Source: Celeribacter marinus (lineage in GTDB: Bacteria; Pseudomonadota; Alphaproteobacteria; Rhodobacterales; Rhodobacteraceae). From it: a DNA stretch of 64,000 nucleotides. The notes under the pieces are model-generated. The model ran no database searches, was not told the origin of the DNA, and was given only the letters and a program-made list of their open reading frames with translations. Position numbers and translations under genes: made by a program. The stretch lies in NCBI RefSeq assembly GCF_001308265.1, contig NZ_CP012023.1:2184932-2248931 (forward strand). Reading direction: 5' to 3'. This document shows, one piece after another, positions 52,377 through 55,841 of the stretch; the first letter of the stretch is position 1, and every line of letters begins with the position of its first letter.

Positions 52377-52895
52377 ATGCCAACACCAAAACCAATCGCC
52401 GGTGATCACCTCGACGCCATTACGTTGCCAAAAGTCGGCGGAGGCACCGTCACCCTTGGAGGGATGCGTGACAACTGGTCCTTGCTCGTCGTCTACCGCG
52501 GCAAACATTGCGGACGCTGCAAGAAATATCTCAAAATTCTCAATGAGATGCGCGACAAATGGTATGACGCCGGATTTGACATTGCTGTCGTCTCGGCCGA
52601 TCCGCTCGACAAAGCCCAAGCAGACCGTGATGCGTTCGATTGGCAGTTTGATTTAGGCTATGATCTCTCTGAGGCACATATGGCCGCCCTTGGCGTCTAT
52701 GTCTCGGAGCCGTTGACTGCGGCAGAAACCGATCGCCGCTTTGCCGAACCAGGCGTGTTTGTGGTCCGCCCTGATGGCAGCCTGTTGCTCATCTCGATCT
52801 CCAACGGCCCCTCGGCGCGCCCTGAATTGGAAGAGCTGCTTGACGGGATGATTTTCACCATCGAAAACGAACGCCCGCCACGTGGCACGGCCTAA
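52377..52895 (+). CDS. Thioredoxin-fold peroxiredoxin-like (AhpC/TSA) protein
   Basis: A 172-residue protein with a thioredoxin-like fold. LLVVYRGKHCGRCKKYLKIL carries a CxxC-type pair (Cys-Gly-Arg-Cys), then VVSADPLDKAQADRDAFDWQFDLGYDLSEAHMAALGVY and PGVFVVRPDGSLLLISISN. It is related to redoxins that reduce peroxides or disulfides. The start has AAAAAGGGA before it. It stands alone between small genes. Confidence 0.87.
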   Translation: MPTPKPIAGDHLDAITLPKVGGGTVTLGGMRDNWSLLVVYRGKHCGRCKKYLKILNEMRDKWYDAGFDIAVVSADPLDKAQADRDAFDWQFDLGYDLSEAHMAALGVYVSEPLTAAETDRRFAEPGVFVVRPDGSLLLISISNGPSARPELEELLDGMIFTIENERPPRGTA

Positions 52896-53295: not shown

Positions 53296-53324
53296 TTGAC
53301 GCCCCTTTGTGTCAGCCCTAAGTT
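53296..53324 (+). promoter_or_regulatory. Candidate sigma-70 promoter of the ilvBN operon
   Basis: TTGACG and TAAGTT are separated by 17 bases. The transcript would start near 53331, directly before the ribosome site of the leader peptide, which is where an attenuated biosynthetic operon should start. Confidence 0.6.
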
Positions 53325-53352
53325 CTGGCAACGCAGTAAAGGAGCGAACGCC

Positions 53353-53403
53353 ATGCTTGGCATTCTTGTCGTACGAGTGGGATATCCGCGCATGGGCCTC
53401 TGA
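53353..53403 (+). CDS. ilv leader peptide (16 residues)
   Basis: ATG at 53353, 9 nt after AAAGGAG, encodes MLGILVVRVGYPRMGL and ends with TGA. Seven of the 16 residues are Leu, Ile or Val, with LGILVVRV at the front. This is the expected make-up of a leader peptide that senses branched-chain amino acids by ribosome stalling. It precedes an attenuator and the acetolactate synthase genes. Confidence 0.8.
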   Translation: MLGILVVRVGYPRMGL

Positions 53404-53456
53404 AGAGAGGTTGACCCTATCGGTTCCCATGCGCCCCCGAAATCGGGGGCTTTTTT
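53388..53456 (+). promoter_or_regulatory. Transcription attenuator before ilvB
   Basis: Two competing structures are visible. GCGCATGGG at 53388-53396 pairs with CCCATGCGC at 53426-53434 (antiterminator, with CCTCT/AGAGG nested inside). GCCCCCGA at 53433-53440 pairs with TCGGGGGC at 53443-53450, followed by six T (terminator). The two overlap by 2 bases at 53433-53434. Stalling in the Leu/Ile/Val codons would leave the first arm free; reading to the stop codon would cover it and allow termination. The overlap is short, so the exclusion could be partly steric. Confidence 0.75.
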
Positions 53457-53517
53457 ATTGCTAAACGACCATCTACTGCCCATGACCATGACACGAGACG
53501 CGTAAGAGGAAAATGAG

Positions 53518-55266
53518 ATGACACGTCAGATGACCGGCGCTCAAATGATCGTCCAAGCCCTGAAAGACCAAGGCGTCGATACGATATTCGGCTACCCTGG
53601 TGGGGCTGTTCTACCGATCTACGATGCTATTTTTCAGCAAACCGATATCAACCACGTCCTCGTGCGCCATGAGCAAGCAGCCGTTCATGCCGCCGAAGGC
53701 TACGCGCGCTCGACAGGCAAACCCGGTGTGGCCCTTGTCACCTCTGGCCCCGGGGCTACAAATGCCGTCACGGGTCTGACAGATGCGCTGCTCGACAGTA
53801 TTCCGATTGTTGTTCTCTCGGGTCAGGTTCCGACATTCATGATCGGCACTGACGGGTTCCAAGAGGCCGATACCGTTGGCATCACCCGCCCGTGCACCAA
53901 ACACAACTGGCTCGTCAAAGACACCGAAAAACTCGCGGAGACGCTCCATCAGGCATTCCATGTCGCCACCTCCGGCCGTCCGGGCCCTGTGTTGGTTGAC
54001 CTGCCAAAGGATGTGCAGTTTGCCGAAGGGACGTATGTCCCGCCATCGAAAGCCAAAGTGAGCCATTACCAACCCGTGATGAAAGCCTCGATTGAGGATA
54101 TCACGGACGTTGTGGCGATGATCGAAAAGGCAGAGCGCCCCGTGTTCTACACAGGTGGCGGCGTGATCAACTCCGGCCCGGCCGCATCGCAGCTGTTGCG
54201 CGAATTGGTTGAGGCCACAGGATTTCCGATCACGTCCACATTGATGGGCCTTGGCTCCTACCCCGCCTCTGGGAAGCATTGGCTTGGTATGCTCGGGATG
54301 CACGGTCTGTATGAGGCCAACATGGCGATGCACGGATGTGATCTTATGATCAACATCGGCGCACGCTTTGACGACCGCATCACCGGCCGGATTCAGGACT
54401 TTTCGCCCAACTCAAAGAAAATCCACATCGACATTGACCCGTCATCCATCAACAAGGTGATCCGCGTTGAAAAGCCCGTCATCGGCGACGTGGCACATGT
54501 CCTTGAGGATATTCTCAAAGTCTGGAAATCACGTGGCCGCAAGACCGCTGATATCAGCGCATGGTCCAAGCAGATCCAAGAGTGGCGGGACGTCAAATGC
54601 CTGACCTACAAAAACTCGGACACGGTGATCAAACCGCAATACGCGCTTGAACGGTTTGAAGCACTAACCAAAGGCATGGACCGCTACATCACCACCGAAG
54701 TGGGCCAGCACCAGATGTGGGCGGCGCAGTTCCTTGGCTTTGAGGATCCGAACCGCTGGATGACCTCGGGTGGTCTTGGCACGATGGGCTACGGCTTTCC
54801 GGCGTCAATCGGCGTGCAAATGGCGCATCCTGACGCGCTTGTGGTCAATGTCGCGGGTGAGGCCAGTTGGCTGATGAACATGCAAGAGATGGGTACGGCG
54901 ATGCAATACGGCGCCCCCGTCAAACAGTTTATCCTCAACAACGAACGCCTCGGCATGGTGCGCCAGTGGCAGCAATTGTTGCATGGCGAGCGCTATAGCT
55001 CCTCGTGGTCCGAAAGTCTGCCAGACTTTGTGAAACTCGCAGAGGCCTTTGGCGCGAAGGGCATTCGTTGTTCCGATCCCAAAGATCTCGATGACGCAAT
55101 TATGGAAATGATCAACTACGATGGTCCGGTGATCTTTGATTGTTTGGTTGAAAAGCACGAGAACTGTTTCCCGATGATCCCATCGGGCAAACCCCACAAT
55201 GAAATGCTGCTCGGCGAAGCGTCCACCGATGGTGCGATCAAGTCCGATGGCGCGGTTTTGGTGTAA
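53518..55266 (+). CDS. ilvB: Acetolactate synthase large (catalytic) subunit
   Basis: A 582-residue ThDP-dependent enzyme, the first common step of Val, Leu and Ile synthesis. Seen are DTIFGYPGGAVLPIYDAI, the catalytic Glu in VRHEQAAVHAAEGYARSTGKPGV, FQEADTVGITRPCTKHNW and the ThDP site WMTSGGLGTMGYGFPASIG, followed by VNVAGEASWLMNMQEMG (the usual GD of this site reads GE). AAGAGGAAAATGAG stands before the ATG. It forms an operon with ilvN, 11 nt downstream, controlled by the attenuator upstream. The symbol could equally be ilvI. Confidence 0.96.
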   Translation: MTRQMTGAQMIVQALKDQGVDTIFGYPGGAVLPIYDAIFQQTDINHVLVRHEQAAVHAAEGYARSTGKPGVALVTSGPGATNAVTGLTDALLDSIPIVVLSGQVPTFMIGTDGFQEADTVGITRPCTKHNWLVKDTEKLAETLHQAFHVATSGRPGPVLVDLPKDVQFAEGTYVPPSKAKVSHYQPVMKASIEDITDVVAMIEKAERPVFYTGGGVINSGPAASQLLRELVEATGFPITSTLMGLGSYPASGKHWLGMLGMHGLYEANMAMHGCDLMINIGARFDDRITGRIQDFSPNSKKIHIDIDPSSINKVIRVEKPVIGDVAHVLEDILKVWKSRGRKTADISAWSKQIQEWRDVKCLTYKNSDTVIKPQYALERFEALTKGMDRYITTEVGQHQMWAAQFLGFEDPNRWMTSGGLGTMGYGFPASIGVQMAHPDALVVNVAGEASWLMNMQEMGTAMQYGAPVKQFILNNERLGMVRQWQQLLHGERYSSSWSESLPDFVKLAEAFGAKGIRCSDPKDLDDAIMEMINYDGPVIFDCLVEKHENCFPMIPSGKPHNEMLLGEASTDGAIKSDGAVLV

Positions 55267-55277
55267 GGAGAGAACAC

Positions 55278-55841
55278 ATGTCTGCCCTACAAATCAAAGA
55301 AGGCTCAAGCAGCCACTCCGCCTATGATCTACGTGATTACCACGCGGAAATCATCGAGAAACACACGCTCGCGGTGCTTGTCGATAACGAAAGCGGCGTT
55401 CTGGCGCGCGTGATCGGTCTGTTTTCGGGTCGTGGCTACAACATCGAAAGCCTGACCGTGGCCGAGGTGAACCATGACACGCATCTGTCGCGCATCACCA
55501 TCGTGACCACTGGCACGCGTGATGTCATTGAACAGATCAAGGCACAGCTCGGCCGGATTGTGCCTGTGCATCAGGTCAATGACCTGACGGTCGATGGTCC
55601 CTCCATTGAACGTGAGCTGGCGCTGTTCAAAGTCGAAGGCACAGGCAACAACCGCATTGAGGCCTTGCGCCTTGCGGAGATTTTTCGTGCCAATGTGGTC
55701 GATAGCACATTGACCAGCTTTGTGTTCGAGATGACAGGTCAGTCGGAAAAGATCGACGCCTTCGCCGATCTCATGCGTCCTCTTGGCCTGTTGGAAACGG
55801 CCCGTACAGGCGTGGCAGCTTTGGCACGCGGCACGGAGTAA
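55278..55841 (+). CDS. ilvN: Acetolactate synthase small (regulatory) subunit
   Basis: A 187-residue subunit with an N-terminal ACT domain (HTLAVLVDNESGVLARVIGLFSGRGYNIESLTVAEVNHD) that binds valine for feedback inhibition, and a C-terminal domain that helps activate the large subunit. GTAAGGAG precedes its ATG. It ends the ilv operon; a strong terminator follows. The symbol could equally be ilvH. Confidence 0.96.
   Translation: MSALQIKEGSSSHSAYDLRDYHAEIIEKHTLAVLVDNESGVLARVIGLFSGRGYNIESLTVAEVNHDTHLSRITIVTTGTRDVIEQIKAQLGRIVPVHQVNDLTVDGPSIERELALFKVEGTGNNRIEALRLAEIFRANVVDSTLTSFVFEMTGQSEKIDAFADLMRPLGLLETARTGVAALARGTE

Follow-up and report, generated by a model that had tools for sequence, protein, structure and literature searches.

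A probable leader-peptide attenuator upstream of ilvB, conserved in Rhodobacterales, and similar leaders preceding a Bcr/CflA-type transporter gene

The stretch of Celeribacter marinus DNA analysed here (64,000 nucleotides, hereafter the window) carries, at positions 53296-53456 upstream of ilvB, a leader element that goes far beyond chance, is well conserved, and belongs to a known kind of attenuator. Ribosome-mediated attenuation of ilvBN by the supply of branched-chain aminoacyl-tRNA is its best reading, in which we have good confidence. The proposal of an earlier note on this DNA that the element is a leader-peptide attenuator was supported by conservation of the leader, by two-sided changes in three stems (P1, P2, and the terminator), and by a fixed run of branched-chain codons. 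Because a leader peptide of ilvB in alphaproteobacteria was already described in 2004 (Vitreschak et al., FEMS Microbiol Lett 234:357, as cited in PMC1273637 and PMC6123439), the attenuator as such is not new. Two points deserve a second look: the module also stands before a transporter gene, and its two stems overlap only slightly.

Results

Leader Elements at the Celeribacter marinus ilvB Locus

The genome of the window is a single contig of 3.1 Mb, in which the upstream neighbour of the leader region is a 172-aa ORF ending at 52895. All elements named in the earlier note lie upstream of ilvB at the coordinates listed in Table 1, and ilvB and ilvN were confirmed by NCBIfam matches of the equivalog type. 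The promoter-like boxes are present, and the box is also kept in homologues, as described below. The short ORF indeed has seven Leu/Ile/Val residues among its 16 codons (L2, I4, L5, V6, V7, V9, and L16), with Ile4 and Leu2 directly 5' of the control codons, and the GC-rich terminator is followed by the six T that had been described. The 9-base stem that had been called an antiterminator, referred to here as P1, was found as a perfect 9-bp pairing of 53388-53396 with 53426-53434; its supposed opposition to the terminator has to be narrowed, since the bases common to both are only 53433-53434, at the terminator foot.

Table 1. Coordinates of the leader elements and the downstream genes in the window
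Feature	Position	Strand	Details and evidence
Putative promoter	53296..53324	+	-35 TTGACG 53296-53301, 17-nt spacer, -10 TAAGTT 53319-53324
Shine-Dalgarno of leader ORF, AGGAG	53340..53344	+	Sequence
Leader ORF MLGILVVRVGYPRMGL	53353..53403	+	ATG 53353, stop TGA 53401-53403, 16 codons; homologues before ilvB
Putative control codons Leu5 Val6 Val7 (Arg8) Val9	53365..53379	+	-12 to -8 from the stop
P1 5' arm GCGCATGGG	53388..53396	+	Last base of a Pro codon, then Arg-Met-Gly
P2 hairpin CCTCT-GAAG-AGAGG	53397..53410	+	Predicted folds; leader stop codon inside
P3 small hairpin, between P2 and P1 3' arm	53413..53425	+	Window fold; not conserved
P1 3' arm CCCATGCGC, non-coding	53426..53434	+	Alignment, pairing
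Predicted intrinsic terminator stem-loop GCCCCCG-AAAT-CGGGGGC	53433..53450	+	Terminator scan; conserved pairs
Terminator U tract, T6	53451..53456	+	Sequence, terminator scan
ilvB, acetolactate synthase large subunit	53518..55266	+	NCBIfam PRK09107, 1120.7 bits, cut-off 974
ilvN, acetolactate synthase small subunit	55278..55841	+	NCBIfam PRK11895, 222.2 bits, cut-off 119

The leader RNA (53330-53462) folded with a z score of -5.28, and the segment 53380-53462 with a z score of -3.84, none of 200 shuffles being as stable in either case; the portion from P2 onward alone was weaker (z = -2.37, 4/200 shuffles). RNAfold placed P1 and the terminator side by side in the window fold. Generic scans of the window were unimpressive, as the terminator scan found one terminator against 0.7 expected and the promoter scan did not list the promoter box of the leader, so that it is conservation that decides whether the element exceeds chance. 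In an Rfam 15 scan of the window, the sole match at threshold was a tRNA elsewhere, and none was obtained at the leader, where the best sub-threshold families were PyrG_leader (19.4 bits, threshold 65) and Trp_leader RF00513 (18.2 bits, threshold 41); an ilvB-named Rfam family did not appear in the window down to E = 10. The element is thus recognised here by no Rfam 15 model, and a metabolite riboswitch or T-box was rejected, since neither had a match at threshold in the window or a credible one at the leader. In the isolated fold of 53330-53462, 13 bases of the Shine-Dalgarno stretch (53333-53345) paired with the terminator end and U tract (53449-53461). This long pairing was not accepted as part of the element, being absent from the consensus of 89 leaders.

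Conservation Before ilvB in Rhodobacterales

The sample consisted of 100 ilvB loci, namely the best 80 of 589 confirmed loci (the named set) and 20 loci of the genus including the window's own, a few of the latter being from the same strains as loci in the named set. The 420 bases upstream of each ilvB start, where present, were searched by a script for a G-C-rich stem before at least four T together with a short ORF ending before the stem. A homologous leader was found upstream of ilvB in 97 of these 100 loci (window included) and a terminator between the leader position and ilvB in 98. The loci without a leader were L014, in which the contig is cut, L060 (Paracoccus chinensis), and L075 (Nereida), the latter two also without a terminator. 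One assignment (L018) was corrected by hand, and the leader counts quoted are the script output as printed. The leader had 14-17 codons in 94 of the 97 loci and its peptide ended in RMGR in 85, and the distance from stop to terminator (first base to first base) was 27-30 nt in 94 of the 97, compared with 32 nt in the window.

Counts of positions, energies, and consensus folds refer to 89 of 91 distinct leaders, L029 and L076 being left out. Of 88 homologues, one of the 89 being left out for too little upstream DNA, 86 had a TTGAC[GC]-17-TAnnnT box about 28 nt 5' of the leader start, against 4.7 expected from base-shuffled sequences; the common -10 consensus TAATGT was derived from the leader set itself, and the -10 box of the window is weaker than this consensus. 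At least 4 nt matching the Shine-Dalgarno consensus TAAGGAGGT preceded the leader ORF in 78 of the 89.

Two covariance models were built, R1 from ilvB leaders alone and R2 from 24 ilvB and 14 transporter leaders (see below). At E <= 0.001, R1 matched 271 of the 292 genomes searched in the order, including 247 at E <= 1e-10; the weak matches within the order may be due to chance. Around the model matches of the order, ilvB was found at all 35 loci (L113-L147, comprising the 30 best order matches and five from a search of the class). The earlier note had proposed conservation of the leader and stems in Rhodobacterales as a test, and its proposal held up, with 97/100 loci, 271/292 genomes, and two-sided stem changes.

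Twenty of the 21 genomes missed by R1 were listed, and all of these carry ilvB. In 14 of them the script found neither a terminator nor a branched-chain ORF; 13 of these belong to one genus, perhaps that of Paracoccus, and the other is G249. The remaining six have a terminator, five of them with a diverged branched-chain ORF; model scores were weak. It is likely that the attenuator was lost in P. chinensis, in the 13 genomes of one genus, and in G249. The loci with no terminator or branched-chain ORF before ilvB were L060, L243, L245, L246, L248-L256, L258, and L261. Of 77 genomes outside the order in which IlvB was found, the nearest 28 were examined; none had a terminator together with a branched-chain ORF upstream, four had a terminator alone, and one had the ORF alone. 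At one locus outside the order (L278), a terminator and a 16-bit model match lie about 52 nt 5' of ilvB, with no branched-chain ORF by the script.

Control Codons and Leader Peptide

At positions -12, -11, -10, -9, and -8 from the stop, Leu, Ile, or Val was encoded in 89, 87, 88, 84, and 82 of the 89 leaders, respectively (92-100%), and at the two or three positions to each side of this run in 3-13%. The three amino acids were interchangeable within the run, and the Arg at -9 in the window was unique among the 89. Codon usage in the leaders differed from that in ilvB of the same genomes, with CTA at 32% vs 1.4% (about 23-fold), GTA at 52% vs 4.5% (about 12-fold), and ATT at 56% vs 15% (about 4-fold). 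GGA accounted for 51% of leader Gly codons vs 4.6% in ilvB and is thus enriched as much as GTA, so that part of the preference for a final A may serve to leave this RNA free of pairing and not to detect scarce tRNAs. This GGA stands mostly directly after the branched-chain run, at codon -7 (53380-53382 in the window), and is frequent in the transporter leaders too.

Where the peptide end is altered, it tracks the RNA stems: RMGL occurs with a remodelled P2 (the window, L047, and L103), HMGR with a compensated P1 (L040), and ARKR is found in L029. A leader peptide gene of this small size may be missed in routine annotation.

Folding and Covariation of the RNA Stems

The 91 leaders were aligned by sequence with MAFFT (alignment A1); another alignment (A3) was fitted to the R2 structure and leans towards R2. 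From A1, RNAalifold predicted part of P1 and the terminator. For P1 and P2 as drawn, 92.6% of cells were paired and two-sided changes occurred in 5 of 13 pairs (0/500 shuffles). When P1 and P2 were slid by +1 column, there were 10 two-sided cells vs 7 in the true position, 3 two-sided pairs vs 5, and 36.7% of cells paired. Since most P1 pairs hardly vary, support for P1 rests on few changes. The terminator was paired in 616/616 cells, with all seven pairs kept in 88/88 distinct rows and two-sided changes in four of the seven (0/500 shuffles; none or one pair in slid versions). P2 was CCG/CGG in most homologues, with two-sided changes; in the window (CCTCT/AGAGG), L018, L047, and L103 it took a remodelled form whose arms still match. 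P3 did not appear in the alignment consensus.

A protector (1:2) hairpin is known for trp and is not treated as defining for ribosome-mediated attenuators generally. No conserved hairpin of this type was found in the ilvB leaders, the consensus fold of 89 full leaders consisting of P1 and the terminator only. We also considered whether a C following the stop codon, as a weak context, might cause slow release; this idea was dropped because several rows with a different P2 have another base there (the window, L021, L028, L030, L044, L047, L073, and L103).

Competition Between P1 and the Terminator

P1 and the terminator abut or overlap without a gap in all 89 leaders. Most share 2 nt (47 leaders) or 3 nt (31 leaders); the overlap is 1 nt in eight leaders and 4 nt in three. 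Codon -5, which precedes the conserved Arg and whose third base forms a P1 pair with a base of the terminator foot, ends in G in 88 of the 89 and in 50 of the 51 leaders where a synonym exists; it encodes 12 kinds of amino acid, and codon -6 ends in G in only 13 of the 89. The contested pair is therefore kept despite an overlap of 1-4 nt, suggesting that the switch would act at the terminator foot; instead of "antiterminator", a better description of P1 is a stem competing with the terminator only there.

The forced-state energies of the two states were -34.9 and -35.0 kcal/mol in the window, and among the 89 leaders the mean difference was 0.34, with 94% within 2. Such nearly equal energies suggest that a ribosome could decide between the states, although the equality is partly built in, as two G-C pairs are exchanged for two; only 13% of the 89 leaders favour the P1 state or tie. 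By RNAfold, the full terminator is compatible with a P1 trimmed by 2 bp. Folding of the growing window RNA predicted P1 to be complete before the terminator 3' arm is made and, once that arm is complete, a shift to the full terminator with the trimmed P1. A switch hanging on 2 bp may be leaky.

The Same Leader Before a Bcr/CflA-Type MFS Transporter

In a class draw of 385 genomes, R2 gave 16 matches at E <= 1e-6, of which five fell in this order and 11 in others; the latter are the same 11 that R1 found at E <= 2e-8 (L148-L158). In the order of G638, 21 of 61 genomes match, one of them already counted; the order of G490 has just one match among 11 genomes, indicating that the transporter link is patchy. 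With L223-L242, which were found by R2, the non-order loci number 31 distinct ones in all. At every one of these, the leader, P1, P2, and terminator are followed just downstream by a same-strand MFS transporter gene whose product is 47-59% identical to that of L157 (the query, itself one of the 31), and ilvB was absent from the leader strand in the 3-kb surroundings of all 31. The two transporters that were scanned, from L149 and L157, pass the NCBIfam Bcr/CflA model (217.4 and 208.7 bits, cut-off 200.9). In Rhodobacterales, the leader stands before the transporter in 4 of the 30 best transporter loci (L186, L189, L190, and weakly L188) and was absent from 20 further transporter upstream regions; the genomes of these four loci each also have a strong model match, which in G126 is the ilvB copy (L133). 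No neighbour gene besides the transporter was shared around five loci whose ORFs were inspected by eye.

The 34 distinct transporter leaders that were translated have a Val-rich run with 74-88% Leu/Ile/Val at -11 to -8, at the same distance from the stop as in ilvB leaders, and P1 is kept. Their Val codons are GTC in 56 of 97 cases; the codon comparison is weak because the coding background could be obtained for just 15 of the 34 loci. In a set of 35 transporter leaders, P1 pairing at the three positions contested with the terminator is kept in 33, 33, and 34, whereas two mid-helix pairs hold in 23 and 18 (3 more gapped for the latter). Only the 5' side of these pairs is informative here, because the terminator also constrains the 3' letters of P1. 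The shuffle control of the transporter P1 was mixed, the observed values being reached in 48 of 500 shuffles for paired cells, 241 for two-sided pairs, 5 for two-sided cells, 356 for pair types, and 3 for the covariation score.

Several other candidates were rejected. Rfam gave no credible riboswitch or T-box match at L148-L158, with one chance-level match elsewhere in L152, and 14 weaker class matches (L159-L172) look by eye like ordinary terminators. A phylum draw of 299 genomes gave 13 matches at E <= 1e-6, of which 12 belong to the same family. The remaining one, outside the class in G986 (37.5 bits, E 3e-8), is a terminator that follows a gene and has no leader; since a score of that size is consequently not proof alone, context was used for the transporter loci.

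We tentatively propose, with somewhat less than even confidence, that a single attenuator module acts on two unrelated genes, ilvBN in Rhodobacterales and a Bcr/CflA-type MFS gene in other orders of the class and in a few Rhodobacterales, that the efflux-type transporter, if its leader acts alike, would be induced by a shortage of charged Val (or Ile/Leu) tRNA, and that the switch operates at the terminator foot only. That the transporter responds to branched-chain supply is a guess; if true, it might, for example, export substances that deplete the branched-chain amino acids of the cell or inhibit their tRNA synthetases, or it might import a branched-chain precursor. The transporter-linked copies would then be a clue to the inducer of a transporter of this type. 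In the openly licensed PubMed Central literature, no paper on a CflA leader peptide or its attenuation was found, which is weak evidence of absence, and a search there for a valine attenuator with efflux in alphaproteobacteria yielded one broad review only.

Discussion

From the conserved features we infer the start site, translation, stalling, folding order, amino-acid response, termination, and regulation as follows. Transcription would start just 5' of the leader ORF. If the supply of charged Leu-, Ile-, or Val-tRNA falls short, the first ribosome would stall in the run of branched-chain codons and leave the P1 5' arm free, so that P1 could form as its 3' arm exits RNA polymerase. By holding 53433-53434, P1 would keep the terminator from closing onto the U tract and permit readthrough into ilvBN. 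With ample supply, the ribosome would reach the stop codon in P2 and cover the P1 5' arm; with P1 blocked, the terminator would close fully and transcription would stop. In E. coli, a ribosome at a stop codon >27 nt away no longer represses the terminator, according to PMC4824070; the spacing in the present leaders is close to that limit, and the two ways of counting may differ by 3 nt. As for control codons, a change from CTA to CTG in the Salmonella leu leader is described in PMC1183508 as having cut sensitivity, and altering the candidate control codons before ilvB of Streptomyces coelicolor is described in PMC1262725 as having no effect, which counts against the present reading.

One alternative accepts the attenuator and contests a single step, thereby overlapping with the reading above: P1 might not compete at the foot at all and might act through steric hindrance in the exit channel, as a pause synchronising ribosome and polymerase, or as a mere spacer. 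The overlap of just 1-4 nt, the coexistence of both helices in the predicted fold, and the unbroken junction of P1 and terminator in 89/89 leaders speak for it. However, the contested pair is kept in 50/51 free codon choices, and the contesting pairs of the transporter leaders are kept better (33, 33, and 34 of 35) than those in mid-helix (23 and 18), so that we regard this alternative as unlikely, while leaving it an appreciable share. The peptide itself might also be the active product, with the nascent chain or its Arg-Met-Gly-Arg end sensing a ligand or acting in trans, as arrest peptides and peTrpL do. The RMGR end in 85/97 loci fits such a role, and the trans-acting leader peptide peTrpL is known in an alphaproteobacterium (PMC7298713). 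Yet the peptide end changes along with the RNA stems (the RMGL, HMGR, and ARKR cases), and Leu, Ile, and Val swap within the run, an exchange that would be unexpected for a specific arrest motif; an arrest or trans-acting peptide is not our first choice because its end follows the RNA pairing, and we consider it improbable.

A somewhat smaller chance still is given to a riboswitch in which P1, P2, and P3 form a metabolite-binding aptamer and the ORF is incidental. The junction-like fold with its common CCGGTAACGG hairpin would suit an aptamer, but some lineages have a different P2 with two-sided changes, P3 lies outside the consensus, all Rfam families fall below threshold at the leader, and the ORF is conserved together with its ribosome site, length, and codon run. 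As for an ordinary intergenic terminator beside a chance ORF, the generic window scans would by themselves be compatible with it, whereas promoter, ORF, spacing, and stems are all conserved in the ilvB leader, making this explanation scarcely credible. Ribosome-mediated attenuation provides a model, open to testing, of how Rhodobacterales, including the roseobacters Ruegeria and Phaeobacter, control the first step in making branched-chain amino acids, and the 2-nt overlap would be a clean test of how little competition switches a terminator.

In the passages that cite it, the ilvB leader of 2004 shares with the present one the gene, the bacterial class, and a leader peptide with attenuation, and the window leader probably belongs to the same family; those passages mention no transporter. 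Otherwise, openly licensed PubMed Central papers found for ilvB leader peptides or attenuation in this class were reviews or dealt with other bacteria. The element also resembles the E. coli trp attenuator (trpL), with a short leader, control codons near the stop, a U-tract terminator, and a stem using the 5' arm of the terminator. In one fold, the overlap of the trp antiterminator with the terminator arm is 5 nt, compared with 1-4 nt for P1 in Rhodobacterales; unlike trp, the ilvB leaders have no conserved protector hairpin. Further afield, the ilvB-II (Corynebacterium), ilvB-OMG, and Leptospira ilvB motifs are described in PMC10272879 and PMC8632094 as having a short uORF rich in branched-chain codons with proposed attenuation before ilvB, and ilvB-II there has a uORF of 15-17 codons, a P1 stem, and a terminator; Corynebacterium and Leptospira belong to other phyla, and these motifs are set beside the Rhodobacterales leader by description only. 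Within the same order, the cysS leader uORFC-8-2, as outlined in PMC8632094, likewise has control codons in a uORF, together with stems and a terminator that ends in a U tail, but differs in having its cysteine codons inside the first stem and cysS downstream.
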